Made by a program: the position numbers and the translations under genes. A stretch of DNA of 41,998 nucleotides, taken from the NCBI GenBank assembly GCA_903821465.1, contig CAIJLK010000039.1, positions 1-41,998 on the forward strand, read 5' to 3'. Below are positions 28,286 through 41,405 of the stretch, one piece after another (the stretch's first letter is position 1; each line of letters begins with the position of its first letter). Below the pieces are notes generated by a model. It was not told the DNA's origin. It saw only the letters and a program-made list of their open reading frames with translations, and searched no databases. This stretch comes from an uncultured Bacteroidota bacterium (GTDB lineage Bacteria > Bacteroidota > Bacteroidia > Chitinophagales > Chitinophagaceae).

Positions 28286-30724
28286 ATGAATAAATTTTTA
28301 TTAGCAATCATTGTCATTGCGTTACCTGTAGGTTTATGCGCTCAAAAAAAACAGCCAAAAAAAACAAAGCCTGTTCAAACTGCTGCTCCAGTAGTTCCTA
28401 TAACCCAAATACAAGCACCGCTTAAACTATGGTACGAAAGTCCGGCAAACTATTTTGAAGAGACAATGGTGTTGGGCAATGGAATGCAGGGTGCTACTGT
28501 ATTTGGTGGCATTTCAACCGATAAAATTTATCTGAATGATCTAACGCTTTGGTCAGGCGAACCGGTCAATGCAAACATGAATCCTCAGGCATTCAAAAAT
28601 TTACCAGCAGTAAGAAAAGCTTTGGAGGATAAAAATTATAAGAAAGCTGAGCAACTCATTAAAAAATTACAAGGAAAGTTTTCAGAATCCTATGCCCCCC
28701 TGGGTACTTTATATATTAAGATGAACGACGATCCATTTATCAATGATTATTATCGCGAATTAGATATTGATCAAGCTATTGCAAAAGTAAAAACCACGTC
28801 AAATAGCAATATCATTGAACGAGAATATTTGGTTTCGAACCCCGATAAAATATTTGCGATTCATCTTACCAGTAAAAAAGCAGGCGCTCTAGGTTTTACT
28901 GTTCGATTTGAATCACTATTGAAATTTCAAAAATCTACGAATAATAATGGCATTACCATCCAGGGTGTAGCGCCTGTCAAAGCAGATCCTAGCTATGTTC
29001 AAAAAACAGAAAAAGCAATTGCTTACGATCTTAAGAGAGGTACCCGCTTTTCAACTAATATTAAAATTCAATCAGCTACAGGAAAAATCACAACTACAGA
29101 TTCAACTGTGAGTTTAGTTGATGCTACAGAGGCAACCATATATATTTCTATGGCAACCAGTTTTAATGGTTTCGATAAAGACCCTGCCACCAAGGGTTTA
29201 GATAATGTTGCAATGGCAACTAGTCAATTAAACAATGCCTACCAAACTGGATGGAATGAGATCAAGAAACACCATGTAAAAGATTATCAAACCTTTTTTA
29301 ATCGGGTTCAATTAAAACTAGCAAATAAAGACACCGTAAACTTACCTACCGATAAGCGCTTGAAAAGGTATGCGACTGGTGCAGCCGATCCATATTTAGA
29401 AACCCTGTATTTCCAATACGGGCGTTATTTGTTAATCAGTAGTTCACGTACAAATGCTGTTCCTGCTAATTTACAGGGTTTATGGAACCCTTATTTGCAG
29501 CCGCCATGGTCAAGTAACTATACTATGAATATAAATGCAGAAGAGAATTATTGGTTAGCAGAAAACACCAACCTCTCTGAAATGCATCTGCCCTTTTTAC
29601 AGTTCATAGGAAACTTGGCAACAACAGGAAAGATCACTGCTAAGACTTTCTACAATATGCCGGGTTGGGTAACTCATCATAATTCAGATATCTGGGCCAT
29701 GTCGAACCCTGTTGGCAATTTTGGAAATGGAGACCCTAGTTGGGCAAACTGGGCAATGGGTGGAACTTGGGCCTCGGCGCATTTGTGGGAACATTATCTG
29801 TATACGCAGGACAAAGAATTCTTAGAACATAAAGCTTATCCCTTAATGCGTGGCGCTGCAGAGTTTTGTTTGGCTTGGCTGGTAAAAGATAGCAGTGGCA
29901 ACTATATTACTTCACCATCAACATCGCCAGAGAACACCTTTAAAACGCCTACCGGTTTTGTTGGAGCAACGATGTATGGCGGTACTGCAGATCTAGCAAT
30001 GATCAGAGAATTATTCTTAGATATTGTAGCAGCCCAATTGGTATTAAAAAACGACAATGAGTTTGCATCAAAAATCAATGCAGCCTTAAATAATTTGCAT
30101 CCTTATCAAGTGGGCAGGAAGGGTAATTTACAAGAGTGGTATTACGATTGGGAAGATTCAGATCCCAAGCACCGACACCAAAGTCATCTATATGGATTAT
30201 ATCCTGGCACACATATCACAACAGATAAAACACCTCTAATTGCAGCGGCAGCAAAAAGAACCCTTGAAATAAAAGGAGATGAAACAACGGGCTGGTCGAA
30301 GGGATGGCGGATTAATTTATGGGCACGATTAAAAGATGGCGACCATGCTTATAAAATGTATCGCGAGTTATTAAAATATGTAGCACCCGATGAGATCAGA
30401 GAGAATTATTCAAATGGAGGGGGTACCTATCCGAATTTATTAGATGCACATCCGCCATTTCAGATCGATGGAAATTTTGGTGGTGCAGCCGCAGTTGCAG
30501 AAATGTTGGTGCAATCAAACTCCGACTTTATTGAACTATTACCAGCCCTACCCAAAGCTTGGGCTTCGGGTGAAGTGAGGGGATTGAAGGCAAGAGGTAA
30601 TTATGAAATTGATATGGTTTGGAATGCAGGGAAAGTAACTAATGTAAAAATTAAATCGACTACACAATCATCGGCAAAAGTATTGATGAATGGAAAGTTC
30701 GAAACTATCAAAACAAGCAAGTAA
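28286..30724 (+). CDS. GH95 family glycoside hydrolase (alpha-L-fucosidase-like)
   Basis: 'LKLWYESPANYFEETMVLGNGMQGATVFGGISTDKIYLNDLTLWSGEP', 'NLQGLWN', 'WSSNYTMNINAEENYW', 'HRHQSHLYGLYPG'. Confidence 0.95.
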   Translation: MNKFLLAIIVIALPVGLCAQKKQPKKTKPVQTAAPVVPITQIQAPLKLWYESPANYFEETMVLGNGMQGATVFGGISTDKIYLNDLTLWSGEPVNANMNPQAFKNLPAVRKALEDKNYKKAEQLIKKLQGKFSESYAPLGTLYIKMNDDPFINDYYRELDIDQAIAKVKTTSNSNIIEREYLVSNPDKIFAIHLTSKKAGALGFTVRFESLLKFQKSTNNNGITIQGVAPVKADPSYVQKTEKAIAYDLKRGTRFSTNIKIQSATGKITTTDSTVSLVDATEATIYISMATSFNGFDKDPATKGLDNVAMATSQLNNAYQTGWNEIKKHHVKDYQTFFNRVQLKLANKDTVNLPTDKRLKRYATGAADPYLETLYFQYGRYLLISSSRTNAVPANLQGLWNPYLQPPWSSNYTMNINAEENYWLAENTNLSEMHLPFLQFIGNLATTGKITAKTFYNMPGWVTHHNSDIWAMSNPVGNFGNGDPSWANWAMGGTWASAHLWEHYLYTQDKEFLEHKAYPLMRGAAEFCLAWLVKDSSGNYITSPSTSPENTFKTPTGFVGATMYGGTADLAMIRELFLDIVAAQLVLKNDNEFASKINAALNNLHPYQVGRKGNLQEWYYDWEDSDPKHRHQSHLYGLYPGTHITTDKTPLIAAAAKRTLEIKGDETTGWSKGWRINLWARLKDGDHAYKMYRELLKYVAPDEIRENYSNGGGTYPNLLDAHPPFQIDGNFGGAAAVAEMLVQSNSDFIELLPALPKAWASGEVRGLKARGNYEIDMVWNAGKVTNVKIKSTTQSSAKVLMNGKFETIKTSK

Positions 30725-30788
30725 TTCAAAGTATAACTGCAAACCTGAAAAAAACTAGATAACTTAGAAAGACCTCATTCATTGCTTT

Positions 30789-31784
30789 ATGAAAAAGTCT
30801 GCCTTATTAATTTATGCATCTGTAACTATTTTGTTGAGCTTGGGATTTCAAGATTCAGTTCATAAGGATCAAAAAGCCCAAAAAAGAGTGGCTGTAATTT
30901 TTGATACTGATGCCAATAATGAATTAGATGACCAACAAGCATTGGCTTACTTGTTTTTCAATAGCAATTTGTTTGATACAAAAGCCGTGACAGTTAATGC
31001 AACTTATAATGGAGGTAATATTGATAGCCAATTTGTAGAAGCAGAACGCATCATGAAGCTGTGTAAGGTGGCAGATAAAATTCCATTATTGAAAGGAGCA
31101 AATGGATCCTTTACTGAAATTGAAAAGGATTTACACAATAAACAATTTGATGGATATAAGGCGGTAAATTTTATTATTTCAGAGGCCAAGAAACATAAAA
31201 AAGACAAATTGATAGTCATAGCCGTTGGTAAACTTACCAACATGGCATTAGCATTAAAAAAGGACCCTACAATTGCTAGTAGTATTAGATTAGTCTGGCT
31301 GGGCAGTAACTATCCTGATCCAGGGGAATATAATTTAGAGAACGATATCCCTTCAATGAATTATATTTTACAAACGAATATTGATTTTGAAATGGTAACT
31401 GTTAGATATGGAAAAAAAACAGGTACCGATGCAGTTAATGTAACGAAAAACGAAGCCATCAATCATTTAAAAGGTGCAGGTCCAACGATTACGATTCCCA
31501 TTATTGGGCGTCATGGCGGTGAATTTTATTCATTTGGAGCGTATTCAATCAATCTTTTTGAACATGTGGATTATTATGGAAATCCTCCATCAAGAGCCTT
31601 ATTCGATATGGCCGCAGTGGCAATTGTAAAAAATGCGAATTGGGCGAAATCTTCTTTAATAAATTGCCCTGCTATGATAAATAAAAAATGGATTGAACAA
31701 ACAGATAATCATCGCAAAATCATCATCTGGGAAAATTTCGATAAAGAGAAAATTATCAATGATTTTTTTCTCTCGTTGCATTAA
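30789..31784 (+). CDS. Nucleoside hydrolase (IUNH-like)
   Basis: 'VIFDTDANNELDDQQALAYLFF' DxDxxxDD calcium motif; 'ALFDMAAVAIV'. Confidence 0.88.
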   Translation: MKKSALLIYASVTILLSLGFQDSVHKDQKAQKRVAVIFDTDANNELDDQQALAYLFFNSNLFDTKAVTVNATYNGGNIDSQFVEAERIMKLCKVADKIPLLKGANGSFTEIEKDLHNKQFDGYKAVNFIISEAKKHKKDKLIVIAVGKLTNMALALKKDPTIASSIRLVWLGSNYPDPGEYNLENDIPSMNYILQTNIDFEMVTVRYGKKTGTDAVNVTKNEAINHLKGAGPTITIPIIGRHGGEFYSFGAYSINLFEHVDYYGNPPSRALFDMAAVAIVKNANWAKSSLINCPAMINKKWIEQTDNHRKIIIWENFDKEKIINDFFLSLH

Positions 31785-32776: not shown

Positions 32777-32805
32777 CATTATTCTTATATTACCAACATT
32801 TATTG

Positions 32806-33579
32806 ATGGAACAGAATAAAAAAACTGAAGCTAAAGATTTAGGATCACTTTTATTAGATGTGGGTGTTTCCTTATTAAGCTCAGGTGCAAGTTGCAGTAG
32901 AATTAGAATTACCATGAGAAGGCTATCATCTGCCTATCATTACGAAGCACATATTTCAATTGCACCAAAATCAATCACATTAACATTAAATGATTTTGAA
33001 GATAATGCATCATTTAATGGAATGCGAAGTACGCCTTCACAAGGTGTAAATTTTAAAACTATTTCCGGCATTAGCCGTTTAAGTTGGGAAGCAGTTGAAA
33101 ATAAGTTATCTATTCAACAGGTTCGGGAAAAGCTGACTGCATTATTAGCATTGCCACATTATCCACGAATCATTATTCTGCTTTTTGTAAGTCTTGCGGG
33201 TGCAGGATTCTGTTATTCTTTCGGAGGAAAATTACCAGAAATGTTTATTGCATTTGGTGCAACTTTTTGCGGATTGTTTATCAGACAAGAAGCCATCAAA
33301 AGAAAATTTAATCCCTATTTCTGTGTATTCTTTGGTTCATTAGTTGCATCATTATTTGCTGGTGCATTTATAAAGGCAGGGTTAAATATTAGTTTTGAAC
33401 ACGCTTTTGCAACTTCTGTTTTATTTTTAATTCCAGGTGTTCCTTTAATCAATTCGTTTACAGATTTAATTGATGGCAATATATTAAACGGAATTGTAAG
33501 AGGCGTAAATGCGTTGATGTTTTCAATGGCAATTGCATTTGGATTATTGATAGCTATGATCATTTTCAATTTGAACTAA
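32806..33579 (+). CDS. Threonine/serine exporter, ThrE N-terminal (DUF1212) subunit
   Basis: 'LLLDVGVSLLSSGASCSRIRITMRRLSSAY' and multiple TM helices ending 'FLIPGVPLINSFTDLIDGNILNGI'. Confidence 0.92.
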   Translation: MEQNKKTEAKDLGSLLLDVGVSLLSSGASCSRIRITMRRLSSAYHYEAHISIAPKSITLTLNDFEDNASFNGMRSTPSQGVNFKTISGISRLSWEAVENKLSIQQVREKLTALLALPHYPRIIILLFVSLAGAGFCYSFGGKLPEMFIAFGATFCGLFIRQEAIKRKFNPYFCVFFGSLVASLFAGAFIKAGLNISFEHAFATSVLFLIPGVPLINSFTDLIDGNILNGIVRGVNALMFSMAIAFGLLIAMIIFNLN

Positions 33580-34061
33580 TGACTATGGAATGGATTATAA
33601 TTCTTAGTAAGGCTTTTTGGAGTGGTTGGGCCGCACTCGGTTTTGGTATTTTATTTAATGTGCCTCCACGCACTTTATTAGCTCTGTGGATTGGAGGTGC
33701 CATTGGAGTTTTTATAAAATTTAGTTTGTTACAAATGTCTGTAAGCGTTGTGCTTGCTTCATTTATTGGGGCATCTGCAGTAGGTTTTTTGAGTATTCCA
33801 ATTGCACATATCAGGCATGTGCCACCAATGATCTTTGCTATCCCTTCTGTAATTCCTCTAATTCCCGGGGTATTTGCCTATCGCACCATGTTAGGTTTAA
33901 TTAAGTTAACTGGTAGTATCGGTGCAGATTATAATACCATCATATCCGAAACCATCAATAACGGTGCAAAAACACTATTCATTATTATGTCTCTAGCAAT
34001 TGGCGTAGCGATCCCCATGCATGTCATGCGTAAAGAATCAGCAAAAAATATCAGATTGTAA
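33579..34061 (+). CDS. Threonine/serine exporter, ThrE_2 (DUF3815) subunit
   Basis: TM protein with 'PPMIFAIPSVIPLIPGVFAYRTMLGLI'; TAATG overlap with upstream gene. Confidence 0.9.
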   Translation: MTMEWIIILSKAFWSGWAALGFGILFNVPPRTLLALWIGGAIGVFIKFSLLQMSVSVVLASFIGASAVGFLSIPIAHIRHVPPMIFAIPSVIPLIPGVFAYRTMLGLIKLTGSIGADYNTIISETINNGAKTLFIIMSLAIGVAIPMHVMRKESAKNIRL

Positions 34062-34197: not shown

Positions 34198-34833
34198 TTG
34201 CTTTTCCTTCCCTTTTTTATAGTCCTAGGTATTATTATGCTTGGATATAATTCGGTTTGTAATGTAGGAGGTAAATTCATAAACCCCGTTTCCCTAAAAA
34301 TATTTTTAGATGATTGGATCCCATTTAATTTTTATATCATTTTCCCTTATGTGATCTGTTTAGGTTTTGTTCTGTTTGCAGGTATCTTCTTCGCTTTTTA
34401 CCGAAATATTAACCCGCTTCAGATCACTGCATTCTATAGTTCAGTGATTCTAATGTATTTCATATGCTATATTATCTATTTTATTTTTCCAACAACAGCC
34501 AAGGAAGTGATGATCACCTCTTTCAATCCAACAGTATTGGATCGGGGCACATATAAAATAGTAAAGGGTTTATATAGCTTGAGTACTCCACTCGGAGATT
34601 TTCCTAGTTTGCATGTGGCACCAATGGTGTTCATGTCTTTTTTTTTATTTAAAAATTGGCGTTCATTCTTTTGGATCTTATTACCGTTTGCTTTTTTGGG
34701 GGCTCTGGGAACTATTCTATTAAAGTTTCATGTATTTCTAGGTTTCTTTGGTGGCGTGTTAATGGGGATATTCGGGTATTTTATTTTGTATGAAAGATTT
34801 GTCATTAAAAAACTTTCAAGGTTTTTAAATTGA
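34198..34833 (+). CDS. PAP2_3/inositolphosphotransferase-like membrane protein
   Basis: Multiple TM segments; 'LGDFPSLHVAPMVFMSFF' PAP2-like motif. Start codon uncertain. Confidence 0.65.
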   Translation: MLFLPFFIVLGIIMLGYNSVCNVGGKFINPVSLKIFLDDWIPFNFYIIFPYVICLGFVLFAGIFFAFYRNINPLQITAFYSSVILMYFICYIIYFIFPTTAKEVMITSFNPTVLDRGTYKIVKGLYSLSTPLGDFPSLHVAPMVFMSFFLFKNWRSFFWILLPFAFLGALGTILLKFHVFLGFFGGVLMGIFGYFILYERFVIKKLSRFLN

Positions 34834-34860
34834 TACATAAAAAGACTAAAAAATACATAA

Positions 34861-35868
34861 ATGGAAAATAAGCAAAAAATAGTTGTTACGGGTGCTGCGG
34901 GATTTTTAGGCGGGCGAACAGCTAAATTTTTAGCATCACATTTTCCCGATTATCAAATCATGGCAACTTCAAGAAGAAGTATTAGGGCCGATGAGTTGAG
35001 TGCTCATAATTGTAACTTTCAAGCAGGAGATTTATGCAATACCAATTTTTGCGAAGCAATAACTGAACGAACCGAAATAGTTATTCATTGTGCTGCACTG
35101 TCCTCCCCTTTTGGCAGTTACGACTCTTTTTATCAATCTAATTTTATAGCTACACAAACATTATTAAATGCCAGTATAAAAAACGGAGTGAAAAAATTTA
35201 TATTCATCTCAACTCCAAGTATTTATTTTACCTATACAGATAGATTCAATGTAGGTGAGGCAGACGAGTTGCCAATGAAAATGGTAAATCATTACGCCCA
35301 AACAAAATTGCTTGCAGAAAAATTAGTTTTAGAAAAAAATAATTTTGGTATTGAGACAATCGCATTAAGACCACGTGCGATAATTGGAGCAGAAGACACT
35401 GTGATTTTTCCAAGGGTTTTAGAAGCATATCATAAGGGAAAATTAAAGATCGTAGGTAATGGTAAAAATATATGTGATTTTACCTGTGTACGAAATGTTA
35501 TTGAAGCCATTGTTTGCGCAATTGATGCCCCTAAAAAAGCATACGGGGAAGCCTACAATATAACAGATGGTGAGTCCGTAAATTTTTGGGAAGCTTTAAC
35601 CTATGCCTTAAATGCATTAGAATTAAAAGCGCCTACTCAAAGAGTTCCCAAAAAGCTAGCCCTATTTGTAGCAAGCTTATTAGAATTTAAAGCAAAATTA
35701 TTACATGAAAAAAAAGAGCCGCCATTAACGAAATATGGAGTGGGTATTTTAGCTAACAACTTTACATTGGATATAACAAAAGCTAAAAAACTACTTAACT
35801 ATCAACCTGTAATGAAATCATTTGAGGGAATTAACGAGTATATATTATGGCACAAGAATCAATTGTAA
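34861..35868 (+). CDS. NAD(P)-dependent epimerase/3beta-HSD-like extended SDR (OleD-like)
   Basis: 'VTGAAGFLGGRTAKFLA' GxxGxxG, catalytic YAQTK, 'TDGESVNFWEAL'. Confidence 0.9.
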   Translation: MENKQKIVVTGAAGFLGGRTAKFLASHFPDYQIMATSRRSIRADELSAHNCNFQAGDLCNTNFCEAITERTEIVIHCAALSSPFGSYDSFYQSNFIATQTLLNASIKNGVKKFIFISTPSIYFTYTDRFNVGEADELPMKMVNHYAQTKLLAEKLVLEKNNFGIETIALRPRAIIGAEDTVIFPRVLEAYHKGKLKIVGNGKNICDFTCVRNVIEAIVCAIDAPKKAYGEAYNITDGESVNFWEALTYALNALELKAPTQRVPKKLALFVASLLEFKAKLLHEKKEPPLTKYGVGILANNFTLDITKAKKLLNYQPVMKSFEGINEYILWHKNQL

Positions 35869-36695
35869 GTTTAAAGCTATTTGCCTCTGGCTATTGTGAG
35901 TCACACGCCAATATTGTGAATCCTTTGGAGGGGAAGGGCAAAACAAAATTCTATGCAGTATGGGCATTACTTGATATTCCAAATCTGGGTTATATACTTT
36001 TTGATACGGGCTATAGTAAGCAATTCAACAAGGCAACACAATCATTCCCCGAACGGCTTTATCGTTGGGCAACCCCAGTAACTCTACCAGAAAATAATAC
36101 AGCAAAAGCCTTACTTGAAGCAGAGGGCATTCATGCAAATCAAGTTAAATATATTATCATATCGCATTTTCATGCAGATCATATAGCGGGTTTAACCGAC
36201 TTCAACAATGCACAATTTATTTGCCATAAAAGTGCTTACGAAGAAGTGCAAAAATTATCAGGGTTTCGTGCTGTTAGCAAAGGAATTTTACAAAAGCTTT
36301 TACCTGATAATTTTAAAAGCAAAGTATTAGTTCTTGAAGATATGGCAGATCAAATAGCTGTAAACCAATTCGGAATTACAGAATATCAAATATTTGGTAT
36401 AAATATAAATCAGTTTAAATTAATCTATCTACCAGGCCATGCCAGAGGAATGTTAGGGTTCATCTATACTCGTAATGATCAATCAATCTTTTATGCTACT
36501 GATGCCTCCTGGAGTTACGAAACTTATGCTCGGGGTATTTTACCAAGGAAAATAGTAAAATTATTTTTCGATTCTTGGGATGATTTTGTAGAAACCCAAG
36601 AAAAAATTAAAGCATTTGAGCTGTCCAACAAACAATATAAAATTTTATTCACTCATTGTGAGCAAACTTTAAAGTATATCAGCAATGAGATTTAA
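35847..36695 (+). CDS. MBL-fold metallo-hydrolase (lactonase/AHL-lactonase-like subfamily)
   Basis: 'IIISHFHADHIAGL' HxHxDH motif, 'YLPGHARGMLGF', 'YATDASW'. Confidence 0.9.
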   Translation: MAQESIVSLKLFASGYCESHANIVNPLEGKGKTKFYAVWALLDIPNLGYILFDTGYSKQFNKATQSFPERLYRWATPVTLPENNTAKALLEAEGIHANQVKYIIISHFHADHIAGLTDFNNAQFICHKSAYEEVQKLSGFRAVSKGILQKLLPDNFKSKVLVLEDMADQIAVNQFGITEYQIFGININQFKLIYLPGHARGMLGFIYTRNDQSIFYATDASWSYETYARGILPRKIVKLFFDSWDDFVETQEKIKAFELSNKQYKILFTHCEQTLKYISNEI

Positions 36696-37977
36696 AATCA
36701 AAATAATTTACTATTGGTTACAAATACATTTTGCTCCCAAACTACAATCTCGTAAAGCAATAGAGGCTTTTCAAGTTAAACGGATGAATCGATTTGCATT
36801 TAAAACACTGATCAGATCTGTTTTTTATCAACCCTATTTTAAAGCGAACAAATTCAATTGGAATGAAGTACCACAAATTTCAAAACCAGTGTTTATGGCC
36901 GAGTTTAATCTTATAAATACCAAGGGGATTAAATTGAATGATGCCATGCAAGTGGCAATTGAATCAGAAAAGTCTAGGAATTTTAAAAACAATTTAAATG
37001 GAATAACTGTTGGTTTATCTACGGGCACAAGTGGTAAACGTGGATTGTTTTTGGTATCAGAAAACGAAAAAGCTCATTGGGTAGCTTTAGTTATCAGTAG
37101 AGTAATTAGGCCTAAATTATTTAAAAAACAAAAAATTGCGTTTTTCCTTCGAGCCAACAGTAATTTATATTCATCAATTGAGTCTTCTTTATTTGAGTTT
37201 AAATACTTCGACATATTTAAACCACTTGAGGAATTACTTGAAGAGTTAAACGCTTATCAACCAGGGATCTTAGCATCTCAGCCTTCTATTTTGATGGATC
37301 TAGCATTAGCCCAGAAAAATGGCGTTATACATATTTCTCCGATTCAAATCATTTCATTTGCGGAAGTATTACATGATAACGATAAAGAAATTATCAGTTC
37401 AATCTTTAATACGGAAATCACAGAAGTATATCAATGTACCGAAGGATTCTTAGGAGTAAGTTGCAAATATGGCAGCATTCATTTGAATGAAGATTTCATT
37501 CGATTCGATAAAGAATGGATCGATGAAAATAAATTCTATCCGATCATTACCGATTTTTCTAGAAGTAGTCAGCCTGTAGTAAAATATAAATTGAATGATG
37601 TATTAGAAATAAAAAAGGAGGCTTGCGGTTGTGGTTCAAAATTTATCGCCATCGAGAAAATAATAGGCCGAGATGATGACATTCTTAATTTCAATGGTAT
37701 AAAGGTGTATCCCGATTTAATAGCGAGAAAGATAGCAATGCATACCGATAGTTTTCAGCAATATGAAATAGAGCAGACAGGGGCAAAAGAATTATGTATA
37801 AACATCGCTTGCGATAGTACGGATTTTGAATCTAACAAAACTATTTTCACATCTATTTTAAATGAATTATTTAAAGGATTTGGGATCACAGAAATTCATT
37901 ACCAATTTGAAAGTAAAATAGCAACTAATAAAGGAAACAAAACAAGAAAAATAAAATGTCTTTATCATGAAAATTAA
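36685..37977 (+). CDS. F390-synthetase/PaaK-like adenylate-forming enzyme
   Basis: 'GLSTGTSGKRGLFLVS' P-loop, 'EVYQCTEGFLG', 'IIGRDDDILNFNGIKVYPDLI' (CoF synthetase-type C-terminus). Confidence 0.85.
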   Translation: MRFKIKIIYYWLQIHFAPKLQSRKAIEAFQVKRMNRFAFKTLIRSVFYQPYFKANKFNWNEVPQISKPVFMAEFNLINTKGIKLNDAMQVAIESEKSRNFKNNLNGITVGLSTGTSGKRGLFLVSENEKAHWVALVISRVIRPKLFKKQKIAFFLRANSNLYSSIESSLFEFKYFDIFKPLEELLEELNAYQPGILASQPSILMDLALAQKNGVIHISPIQIISFAEVLHDNDKEIISSIFNTEITEVYQCTEGFLGVSCKYGSIHLNEDFIRFDKEWIDENKFYPIITDFSRSSQPVVKYKLNDVLEIKKEACGCGSKFIAIEKIIGRDDDILNFNGIKVYPDLIARKIAMHTDSFQQYEIEQTGAKELCINIACDSTDFESNKTIFTSILNELFKGFGITEIHYQFESKIATNKGNKTRKIKCLYHEN

Positions 37978-38956
37978 TATTCTGTCGATTGAAAAGCATC
38001 TCTCAGAAAACAAAATTTCATCTGAAACCCTTGACATATTAGCTAATGGAACGAAAGGAAGAATTGAAAAGAATACCGGGGTAAAATTTCGCCACCGTTT
38101 TTCAGAAAGCGCAACAGTAGCTGAAATTGGATCCATTGTTTTAAAGAAAGCATTAGCCAAAGCAAATTTACATCCATCGGATATCGACTTATTAATTTTC
38201 GCAGGAGCTTCCTATGATTATCCGGTTCCACATAATTCTGTGATCATTAAATCGAAGATCACTGACGATAGCGTAAATTTTGCTTGCATGGATATTGACA
38301 CAACCTGCCTTAGTTTTTTAAACGCATTAGATGTTGCTCATCTTTATCTTCAAGCTGGCAGGTATAAAAGAATAGCGATCGTAAGTGTAGAAATTTCTTC
38401 AAAGACTTTAAAACCCCATGATGAAAAGGTCTTTGGTTTATTTGGGGATGCTTCGGTAGCTATGATCATCGAGGCTTCTAATACAAAAGGCTATTCCTGC
38501 TCCTATGTTGATTTCGAAAACTATCCATCTGGTGCTTTACTCGCGCATATACCTATTGGTGGATTAGTTAACCAAGGGATTTATGCATCTCCATCTGATA
38601 TAGGCTATTGCTTTAAAATGGATGGAAAAAAATTGATCCGATTAACCTTAGAACATTTAGATCCTTTTGTCGATAAAATTGAACAGCAAACCAAGACCAA
38701 ACTAATTGATTTTGATTTTATCCTTACCCATCAAACAAGCAAGTTTGGCAACGAATACTTTTTGAAAACATTTAATTTAAACAAGGAGAAAGTGATAGAA
38801 ACATTATCTGTTTATGGCAATTGTATTTCAGTATCCATACCGCTAGGACTAGAAAAATTATTAGAAAACAATACTAATATTACTAATAAAAAAGTGTTAA
38901 TACTTGGAACCGCCGCTGGCTTAAGTTTAGGGGCAATGGTACTTGAGTTTGAATAG
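37967..38956 (+). CDS. 3-oxoacyl-ACP synthase III (FabH/OleA-like) condensing enzyme
   Basis: Catalytic Cys (Cys114) in 'DIDTTCLSFLNALDVA', His in 'THQTS', Asn in 'YGNCISVSIPLGLEKLL'. Confidence 0.9.
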   Translation: MKINILSIEKHLSENKISSETLDILANGTKGRIEKNTGVKFRHRFSESATVAEIGSIVLKKALAKANLHPSDIDLLIFAGASYDYPVPHNSVIIKSKITDDSVNFACMDIDTTCLSFLNALDVAHLYLQAGRYKRIAIVSVEISSKTLKPHDEKVFGLFGDASVAMIIEASNTKGYSCSYVDFENYPSGALLAHIPIGGLVNQGIYASPSDIGYCFKMDGKKLIRLTLEHLDPFVDKIEQQTKTKLIDFDFILTHQTSKFGNEYFLKTFNLNKEKVIETLSVYGNCISVSIPLGLEKLLENNTNITNKKVLILGTAAGLSLGAMVLEFE

Positions 38957-39040: not shown

Positions 39041-39418
39041 TTAAATAGAAATACTACTAAATAATTCTACTGTTAATGGCTTATCGAGCCAGCCGGATAA
39101 ATTACTATATTCATTTGCTTTTTTCAAATCCAGTTCATTTAAAGTGGAAGAATGCAAATAGATCTTAGTAGTTGATAGAGGATTCTTATCCATTAGTAAC
39201 AATTCATCTAAAAATTCAAACCCATTCATTTCAGGCATCCAAACATCTAATAACAAGATTTCAGGAGCAACAAAATCATTTCCACTTTGCTTTATGAAAT
39301 TCAACATTTCAACTCCAGATAAAAATGATCTGATTTGAATTTCATTAGAAAAACGATTAATAACTGCAGTATTTAGCGTATTAAATATAAAGTCATCGTC
39401 TACAAGAAAAACAAGCAT
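39041..39418 (-). CDS. Single-domain response regulator (CheY-like)
   Basis: 'LVDDD', phosphoacceptor 'LLLDVWMPEMNGFEFL', 'DKPLT'. Confidence 0.9.
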   Translation of the reverse strand: MLVFLVDDDFIFNTLNTAVINRFSNEIQIRSFLSGVEMLNFIKQSGNDFVAPEILLLDVWMPEMNGFEFLDELLLMDKNPLSTTKIYLHSSTLNELDLKKANEYSNLSGWLDKPLTVELFSSISI

Positions 39419-39423
39419 GTATT

Positions 39424-40776
39424 TTAATTTAAGTTTGAAATTCGAAGAGTCATAGTAGTACCAACTCCAGGTTCTGATTCTATGCCTATTTCACCTCCCA
39501 ATTTTTTAATAATATCTTTACAAATATACAATCCTAATCCGGTTCCAACACTTTTTGTAGTTGCCCTATAAAACATATCAAAAACATGATCAAGATGTTT
39601 TTTTGCAATTCCCTCCCCATTATCTTGAATTGTAATTTTATAATTATTTTGTTCACTCTCAAGATTTACTTTGACCCAAGATGTAGTGAGTTTACTGCTG
39701 TATTTAATACTATTTCCAATTAAGTTTTTTAACAACATATTTATTCTTAATTGATCTGAGTTAATTACAGTTTTTGCAGCAGGATAAATGAATAATTCAG
39801 TTTCACATTCAGTCGAAAACTTAAGATCATCAAAAATAGTTTGCACCATTTCTGTAAAATCGAATTCAGTATTACTTACTGTTACCCTTGAATTTCTAGC
39901 GTATTCAAGAATTTCCTGAATAGTATTATCCTGCCTAGAAGCAGAAGTCATAATCATATCAATAAAATGTCTATTTTCTAAGTTTAAATCTTTAGATTCT
40001 AACACCAATTTTGCAAGTCCTTTTATTGAAAGAATAGGAGATCGAAGATCGTGTGAAATACTATACACAAAATTGTCTAACTCTAAATTTATTTTCTCAA
40101 GTTCTTCATTTTTTTGGAGAATTTCTTTTCTCTGATTGAATTCCTCAGTTATATCTAATATGATTGAAAAAATCATGCCCTTGCCAGAATTTTTAATTCT
40201 AGATGTATGAACGTTTACATTTCTAAATTCTCCTGATGAAAGTTTATGTATGAATTCATTTTCGCCATCTATACTTTTTCTAAAGTTGTTCATTTGATAT
40301 TCAAACAATTCATTTGAAAGGGAATTGATCTCAGAAATTTTAATCTTTGTCATCTCGTCTATGCTGTACCCGTAAAAATCTAATGCTGTCTGATTGGCAT
40401 CTGTAATAAAATAGGTTTCGGGGTCAATCAATAACATATTAGCCGAACTTTTTGCAAAAATCATTTTGAACTTACTTTCACTTTCTCTAAGCAAATTTTC
40501 AGACCGTTCTAATTTATTAATTTTAGATTTTAAAGGTAAATAACTATAGAAATATATCAAAGGCAGAATAAAACTTAACAGCAAAATCATATCCAGAAAA
40601 TTCGTTTGCCAGTTTTGCATAGTATGCACAACATTCAACATCGGCATAATCAAACATTCAACCAAACATATTGAAAGCAGGAGTAAAAAGGAAAGACGTT
40701 TAGTTTTGATGATTTTTATAATAGAATTGATAAAATCTGTTTTGGCCTTGCTGGTATTTGTGATAGTTGTTTCCAT
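39424..40776 (-). CDS. PAS-domain membrane sensor histidine kinase
   Basis: Two N-terminal TM helices, PAS, 'SISHDLRSPILSIKGLAKLV' HisKA, 'NLIGNSIKYSS' and 'GTGLGLYICKDIIKKLGGEI' HATPase. Confidence 0.95.
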   Translation of the reverse strand: METTITNTSKAKTDFINSIIKIIKTKRLSFLLLLSICLVECLIMPMLNVVHTMQNWQTNFLDMILLLSFILPLIYFYSYLPLKSKINKLERSENLLRESESKFKMIFAKSSANMLLIDPETYFITDANQTALDFYGYSIDEMTKIKISEINSLSNELFEYQMNNFRKSIDGENEFIHKLSSGEFRNVNVHTSRIKNSGKGMIFSIILDITEEFNQRKEILQKNEELEKINLELDNFVYSISHDLRSPILSIKGLAKLVLESKDLNLENRHFIDMIMTSASRQDNTIQEILEYARNSRVTVSNTEFDFTEMVQTIFDDLKFSTECETELFIYPAAKTVINSDQLRINMLLKNLIGNSIKYSSKLTTSWVKVNLESEQNNYKITIQDNGEGIAKKHLDHVFDMFYRATTKSVGTGLGLYICKDIIKKLGGEIGIESEPGVGTTMTLRISNLN

Positions 40777-41012
40777 AGTATTTCCGTTAATTAATATTTA
40801 TTATTTAAAGAACAGAACATTGAGTAATAAAGAGATTGCTATTCACCAGATTATAACGAATAGGAAACTCTTATAAATTATAAAATAATCAATGCACTTT
40901 TATATAATGACCAATAATTTATACAGAACGACGAAATGATATATGTTCTTTTAGGGATATTTTCATAATTTATTATTAGTTACCATTAACGCATTTTTTA
41001 ATTCAACAACAA

Positions 41013-41405
41013 ATGATAAACGATATTTTTTTGATTGATGATGACATTCTGGTTAATTTTTTAAATAAAGAAGTTATAAAGAATGCTTACATCGGAAAAA
41101 ATATTAGCGCATTTGATAGTGCAACTATAGCGTTAGATACACTTAAGCAAATTTCAACTAATCCAAATTCAAAATTACCACTCCTCATTTTACTCGATAT
41201 CAATATGCCGGAAATGGATGGATGGGAATTTTTAGAAGAGTTCAATCAACTTCCAAAAAGTGTTATTGAAGAATGTAAAGTTGTGATGCATTCTTCATCA
41301 ATTGATCCAAGAGATATGGAAAAAGCAAAAACATTTTCTTCAGTAAAAGATTTTATCTCTAAGCCATTAACGGCTGAGTCGCTTACTAAATTTTTCTATT
41401 CTTGA
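41013..41405 (+). CDS. Single-domain response regulator (CheY-like)
   Basis: 'FLIDDD', 'LLDINMPEMDGWEFLEEF', 'SKPLTAESL'. Confidence 0.9.
   Translation: MINDIFLIDDDILVNFLNKEVIKNAYIGKNISAFDSATIALDTLKQISTNPNSKLPLLILLDINMPEMDGWEFLEEFNQLPKSVIEECKVVMHSSSIDPRDMEKAKTFSSVKDFISKPLTAESLTKFFYS

Follow-up and report, generated by a model that had tools for sequence, protein, structure and literature searches.

A widespread, uncharacterised bacterial operon that joins an MxnB/CorB-type ketosynthase to exchangeable neighbours

What do five tightly packed genes from an uncultured member of the Chitinophagaceae (Bacteroidota) make together? The genes lie in a 41,998-nucleotide (nt) stretch of DNA, referred to here as the window (positions 1 to 41,998 of contig CAIJLK010000039.1, assembly GCA_903821465.1), and a preliminary description made from the sequence alone proposed that they follow the division of labour of the OleABCD olefin pathway. 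To address this question, we compared the operon with relatives drawn from species genomes, plasmids, and E. coli genomes; the cross-phylum sample comes from plasmids and is hence biased. The last four genes are a real unit that is found together across phyla, the condensing enzyme sits with the myxobacterial ketosynthases MxnB and CorB, and the genes beside this core are exchanged from locus to locus. The five genes, which match the preliminary description exactly in coordinates and overlaps, are as follows.

34198..34833, + strand: PAP2_3-like membrane protein, 211 amino acids from a TTG start; the variable, putative tailoring gene at this locus.
34861..35868, + strand: extended short-chain dehydrogenase/reductase (SDR), like OleD and 3beta-hydroxysteroid dehydrogenase, with YxxxK (Y145, K149), 335 amino acids; core gene.
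35847..36695, + strand: metallo-beta-lactamase (MBL)-fold hydrolase, like acyl-homoserine lactone (AHL) lactonases, with the full two-metal set, 282 amino acids; core gene.
36685..37977, + strand: F390-synthetase-related adenylate-forming enzyme of family TIGR02304, 430 amino acids; core gene.
37967..38956, + strand: beta-ketoacyl synthase (KAS) III condensing enzyme of the MxnB/CorB type, with Cys114-His255-Asn285 and Val87, 329 amino acids; core gene.

The arrangement of these genes is itself informative. The SDR and MBL genes overlap by 22 nt, the MBL and F390-type genes and the F390-type and KAS genes by 11 nt each, and a 27-nt gap separates PAP2 from the SDR. Identical 22/11/11-nt overlaps occur in seven relative loci (L014, L015, L016, L017, L021, L023, and L024). 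Most of the proteins encoded there are 50–75% identical to those of the window (82–87% in L014). The exact recurrence of the overlaps in such diverged loci is strong evidence that the layout is selected, not accidental. A simple promoter and terminator scan gave no signal: it found 23 and 2 sites, where shuffled sequences gave 26.9 and 3.1.

In nearly all of the loci examined across phyla, the SDR, MBL, F390-type, and KAS genes occur together. They are found in many Bacteroidota, in Bacillota (Bacillus, Pontibacillus, and Paenibacillus), in Fusobacterium (Fusobacteriota), and in Alphaproteobacteria (Ketogulonicigenium, Paracoccus, Rhizobium, and Shinella), Betaproteobacteria (Ralstonia, Burkholderia, and Paraburkholderia), and Gammaproteobacteria (E. 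coli and Pseudomonas). The order SDR-MBL-F390 is fixed, and the KAS gene is either first or last. The four proteins also diverge in step: their pairwise identities correlate over 38 loci (Mantel rho 0.67–0.87), and 0 of 500 permutations gave a value as high. The exceptions are L030, which has the MBL and F390-type genes without a KAS, L060, which has the F390-type gene alone, and a distant paralogue in L042. Both L030 and L060 are Pseudomonas megaplasmids, in which most genes around the F390-type gene are hypothetical, a KAS is absent, and an ATP-grasp-like protein is encoded close by. Three genomes of one genus (L042 in G013:C8, L013 in G034, and L012 in G132) have an additional copy that is TIGR02304-like but distant (~30% identical); at L042, the one copy inspected for its surroundings, no other core gene was found adjacent.

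The core is patchily distributed and has probably spread horizontally. The F390-type family occurs in 10 of 395 genomes within the window's class and in 6 of 199 within its phylum, and the cluster is present in 674 of 5426 complete E. coli genomes (~12%), nearly whole in 673 of them. In strain CFT073 (L064, 5001-11882) it comprises seven genes between narI and tRNA-Tyr genes, encoding the KAS, SDR, MBL, and F390-type enzymes, a PAP2 protein, a fatty-acid hydroxylase (FA_hydroxylase), and a desaturase. The question raised in the preliminary description, whether the gene set is conserved across phyla, thus has a positive answer for a four-gene core.

What was overlooked there is that swappable tailoring genes beside this core recur across phyla. 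PAP2 stands alone beside the core in the window and in L014, and is joined by the desaturase and by FA_hydroxylase, whose best family is the ornithine-lipid hydroxylase OlsE (67 bits, below the cut-off), in E. coli, Ralstonia, and Burkholderia; FA_hydroxylase appears without PAP2 in L051, L052, L054, and L057. An ATP-grasp protein is paired with a GNAT protein in Paenibacillus, L018, L019, and L037, and these two are accompanied by a Rieske oxygenase in L015 (which also has a carbamoyltransferase), L020-L022, Rhizobium, Shinella, and Paraburkholderia; Bacillus mycoides has the ATP-grasp gene and an unassigned protein in GNAT's place. DUF3419, the family that includes the betaine-lipid enzyme BtaA, adjoins the core in L016, L017, and one Rhizobium. 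A sulfotransferase is present in three Alphaproteobacteria, L052, and L055, and an APS kinase adjoins the core in L052. No useful relative of the DUF3419 and GNAT-like proteins was found in the PDB. In a tree of the core the Bacteroidota cluster together, and the types of neighbour recur in other phyla and vary among the window's close relatives. Judging from their enzyme families, these neighbours may be head-group or other tailoring enzymes.

Among solved structures, the relatives closest to the condensing enzyme are MxnB and CorB, which have two substrate tunnels and join two beta-ketoacyl chains in the formation of myxopyronin and corallopyronin. Compared with solved structures, the window KAS scores 114 bits against MxnB, 110 against CorB, 105 against the best FabH, and 51 against OleA; the gap is wider for the E. 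coli version (171, 157, 150, and 30 bits, respectively). A Foldseek search with the predicted model (pLDDT 78, fair) also places CorB and MxnB at the top, though with little margin, and in a tree with few outgroups and no OleA the KASs of the operon all group with MxnB and CorB, opposite FabH, with a support (SH-aLRT) of 100. The genome contains three other KAS III genes, two of which (L002 and L003) pass both FabH cut-offs, whereas the window KAS passes neither (PRK09352, 166 vs 249 bits; TIGR00747, 150 vs 292 bits). Thus, by sequence, fold, and tree, the window KAS sits with the MxnB/CorB type, apart from the genome's own FabH. Of the three outcomes that the preliminary description had named as damaging to its proposal, none materialised: the neighbourhood is conserved, two bona fide FabH-family copies lie elsewhere in the genome, and no already characterised product of the operon turned up in the open-access literature.

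Its view of the enzyme as OleA-like fares worse. The OleA and PpyS mechanism requires a glutamate from the neighbouring subunit (E117 and E105, respectively), which is V94 in MxnB/CorB (PMC4578411), and a Glu-Pro pair is present in nearly all OleAs (PMC7064751). The position of this base is Val87 in the window KAS and Ile, Leu, Val, or Thr in 38 of 38 homologues, never Glu, and it is followed by an invariant Pro88 (38/38) that matches the proline after OleA E117. MxnB V94 aligns with Val87. The catalytic cysteine is numbered 121 in the paper but 137 in the PDB chain, a shift of 16, so that V94 corresponds to chain residue 110, which the alignment places opposite Val87. The chain of the OleA E117A mutant gives an independent hint, scoring slightly above wild-type OleA against the window KAS. 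The Cys-His-Asn triad of OleA is present, but it is common to FabH and MxnB and so is not specific. A search for the OleA family NF006720 in 99 Bacteroidota genomes gave no match and matched no control either, and is uninformative. Because Val87 replaces the glutamate, the KAS is not expected to abstract a proton from a plain acyl chain in the manner of OleA; we infer that its nucleophile is more likely to be malonyl or beta-ketoacyl. With MxnB and CorB as the closest solved relatives, there is no indication that olefins or beta-lactones are formed by the Ole route.

The other three core enzymes can be placed by family. Among all NCBIfam families, the SDR matches OleD (NF042422) best, in line with the OleD-like label of the preliminary description, although at 190.4 bits it is below the cut-off of 580; its best PDB match is a sterol-4-alpha-carboxylate 3-dehydrogenase. 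Both of these enzymes use beta-keto or beta-hydroxy acids, so that by analogy a role as beta-keto reductase is reasonable for the SDR. The MBL enzyme and the PaaK/F390-type ligase are also where they had been reported. The former resembles AHL lactonases (60 bits, curated cut-off 390) and keeps the two-metal site of AiiA and AttM (H-x-H-x-D-H, H, D, H), but has Trp222, three residues past the bridging Asp219, where AHL lactonases have a catalytic Tyr (Tyr in GcL). With Trp in place of Tyr, its substrate is likely to be a lactone other than an AHL, or a thioester. The ligase belongs to TIGR02304 (418.8 bits vs a cut-off of 251.9, residues 4-424); its best relatives are PaaK and F390 enzymes, and it has no match in Pfam, hence none to the AMP-binding family PF00501 that is the architecture of OleC. 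Carboxylate activation is the norm for the PaaK/F390-type family. F390 synthesis itself, the adenylylation of F420, is disfavoured as the function because the operon partners are acyl-chain enzymes.

The preliminary description also noted that the catalytic motifs of the core enzymes look intact, and judged over 38–40 homologues this applies to all four. The invariant residues are Cys114, His255, and Asn285 of the KAS (38/38), Ser117, Tyr145, and Lys149 of the SDR, His107, His109, Asp111, His112, His198, Asp219, and His270 of the MBL enzyme (all 40), and Gly110, Ser112, Gly114, Thr115, and Gly117 of the loop of the F390-type enzyme together with its Asp305, Arg329, and Lys419. Such invariance leads us to expect that all four are active. 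Catalytic activity is less certain for PAP2. The window protein scores 26.1 bits against Pfam PAP2_3, just below the cut-off of 27, and its 5′ end, with the TTG start, is uncertain. The PSLH motif and His178 are present, but motif 3 (H-x3-D) reads H178-VFL-G182, with Gly182 instead of Asp. The Asp is Gly also in L014, which has a 77% identical ortholog in the same position, and is retained in the PAP2s of E. coli, Ralstonia, and Burkholderia.

Taken together, these data suggest that the core makes a hydroxylated acyl scaffold that is finished by interchangeable tailoring enzymes, a reading to which we assign a probability of roughly 0.45. The KAS III would load an acyl chain on Cys114 and join it to a nucleophile that is already acidic. 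This partner would be a beta-ketoacyl thioester, by analogy with MxnB/CorB, or a malonyl thioester, by analogy with FabH, whereas OleA uses a plain second acyl chain. The OleD/3beta-HSD-like SDR would convert the resulting beta-keto group into a beta-hydroxyl group. The MBL enzyme would release the hydroxy acid by hydrolysis of a thioester or lactone, and the PaaK/F390-type enzyme would use ATP to activate its carboxylate so that a thioester, amide, or ester can form. An enzyme specific to the locus would then decorate the hydroxylated lipid: the PAP2-family protein in the window, and elsewhere PAP2 with a fatty-acid hydroxylase and desaturase (E. coli and Ralstonia), ATP-grasp and GNAT proteins with or without a Rieske oxygenase, DUF3419, or a sulfotransferase. 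Whereas the conserved unit, the intact residues of its four enzymes, the type of KAS, and the exchange of neighbours are shown, we infer each reaction, the order of reactions, and that the product is a lipid.

Several observations weigh against this proposal. No acyl carrier protein (ACP) is encoded in the cluster; the advantage of MxnB/CorB over the best FabH is just 5–9 bits for the window KAS, and the tree that unites them is sparse in outgroups and lacks OleA. The PAP2 of the window is without its motif-3 Asp. Five Bacteroidota loci (L023 and L038-L041) have the core without an obvious tailoring neighbour, which implies that the decorating step is not always encoded close by. The AlphaFold model of the F390-type enzyme is poor (pLDDT 50) and was not used, so that its mechanism is read from motifs alone, and we found no functional study of the gene set, its product, or its enzymes in the open-access literature.

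Of the alternatives, the one that survives best, although we consider it unlikely, is that the KAS, by making or joining beta-keto chains, yields a lactone or pyrone, a small diffusible signal or antibiotic whose ring the MBL enzyme tunes or opens and the neighbours tailor. The grouping of the KAS with the pyrone-forming MxnB and CorB fits this idea, as do the closeness of the MBL enzyme to AHL lactonases and a patchy, partly plasmid-borne distribution suited to a secondary metabolite. However, Trp222 occupies the place of the lactonase Tyr, the core has no consistent link to a receptor or exporter, and the DUF3419, PAP2, and fatty-acid hydroxylase/desaturase neighbours fit lipids better.

An alternative Ole pathway is less probable still. 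In it the KAS would condense two acyl-CoAs head to head (as OleA) and the SDR would reduce the product (as OleD); ring closure to a beta-lactone would fall to the F390-type enzyme (as OleC), and opening or decarboxylation of that lactone to the MBL enzyme, standing in for OleB. The same four reaction types are present, OleD is the best family of the SDR, and oleACD clusters without oleB are known to yield beta-lactones (PMC7064751). Nonetheless, the essential Glu117 of OleA is Val87 here and Glu in 0 of 38 homologues, OleA scores far below MxnB/CorB and FabH, the SDR reaches 190 of the 580 bits demanded of an OleD, and the ligase matches PaaK/F390 families and not PF00501. The division of labour first proposed was therefore right in part, in that an OleD-like SDR, a ligase, and an MBL enzyme are present, and wrong in its first step. 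We likewise think it improbable that the operon supplies an unusual starter or a branched or hydroxy fatty acid to ordinary membrane lipids, by FabH-type decarboxylative priming, SDR reduction, thioesterase release by the MBL enzyme, and F390-type reactivation to CoA, with lipid genes beside it by coincidence: the KAS does score 150–166 bits against FabH families with Cys-His-Asn in place, and some loci lack a tailoring gene, but these scores are below the cut-offs, the genome has two genuine FabH-family copies, and the same tailoring families adjoin the core in different phyla.

Directly upstream of the operon, at 32803-34061, lies a split threonine/serine exporter (a ThrE-like pair). In L014, a Bacteroidetes metagenome-assembled genome, the second ThrE half is 91% identical, and three opposite-strand genes stand between it and the PAP2 gene, indicating that the upstream edge of the operon has shifted. 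That L014 has both a close copy of the operon and this ThrE gene nearby disfavours contamination as the source of the window's operon. Downstream, at 39041-41405, translations point to a PAS-type histidine kinase flanked by two single-domain response-regulator-like genes; further upstream, at 28286-31784, are genes for a GH95 family enzyme and, after it, an inosine-uridine-type nucleoside hydrolase.

If the hydroxylated-scaffold proposal is true, it has implications beyond this locus. The operon could, more tentatively, specify an undescribed class of bacterial acyl conjugate, in which a core of the interconnecting ketosynthase type is combined with head groups that change by lineage (sulfate, an aminocarboxypropyl unit, an amino acid, or a phospho-group); it would range over Bacteroidota, Bacillota, Fusobacteriota, and Proteobacteria, with ~12% of complete E. 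coli genomes among the carriers. This would be a seemingly unstudied class of lipid or lipid-like natural product in hosts as tractable as E. coli. It would also give a function to TIGR02304, a named family for which we found no functional paper in the open-access literature, and would make MxnB/CorB-type ketosynthases, until now linked to two myxobacterial antibiotics, part of a widespread pathway. The neighbours that are exchanged form a natural set for assigning enzymes to the groups that they add.

How does the operon compare with known systems? MxnB and CorB are the nearest solved relatives of the KAS in sequence and fold, and share its Cys-His-Asn triad, its GNCI loop, and an aliphatic residue (MxnB V94) at the site of the OleA Glu. 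However, they are only ~25% identical to it and act at the end of polyketide synthase (PKS) assembly lines with dedicated carrier proteins, whereas the window KAS has no linked PKS or ACP but an SDR, an MBL enzyme, and a ligase. OleABCD likewise encodes a thiolase-fold condensing enzyme, an extended SDR, and an adenylate-forming enzyme together, but the OleA Glu is absent from the window KAS and the ligase is of the PaaK/F390 type. OleB is an alpha/beta hydrolase (a beta-lactone decarboxylase), and the operon has an MBL-fold gene in that place; of the core clusters that we examined, none contains an alpha/beta hydrolase of the OleB kind. Copies annotated as TIGR02304 'F390 synthetase-related protein' on plasmids and in E. 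coli share the neighbours of the window ligase, and we found no description in the open-access literature of the family's conserved operon and swappable neighbours. This is a real, widespread, and uncharacterised biosynthetic operon, and its most informative new features are a ketosynthase of the MxnB/CorB type and neighbours that change from locus to locus.

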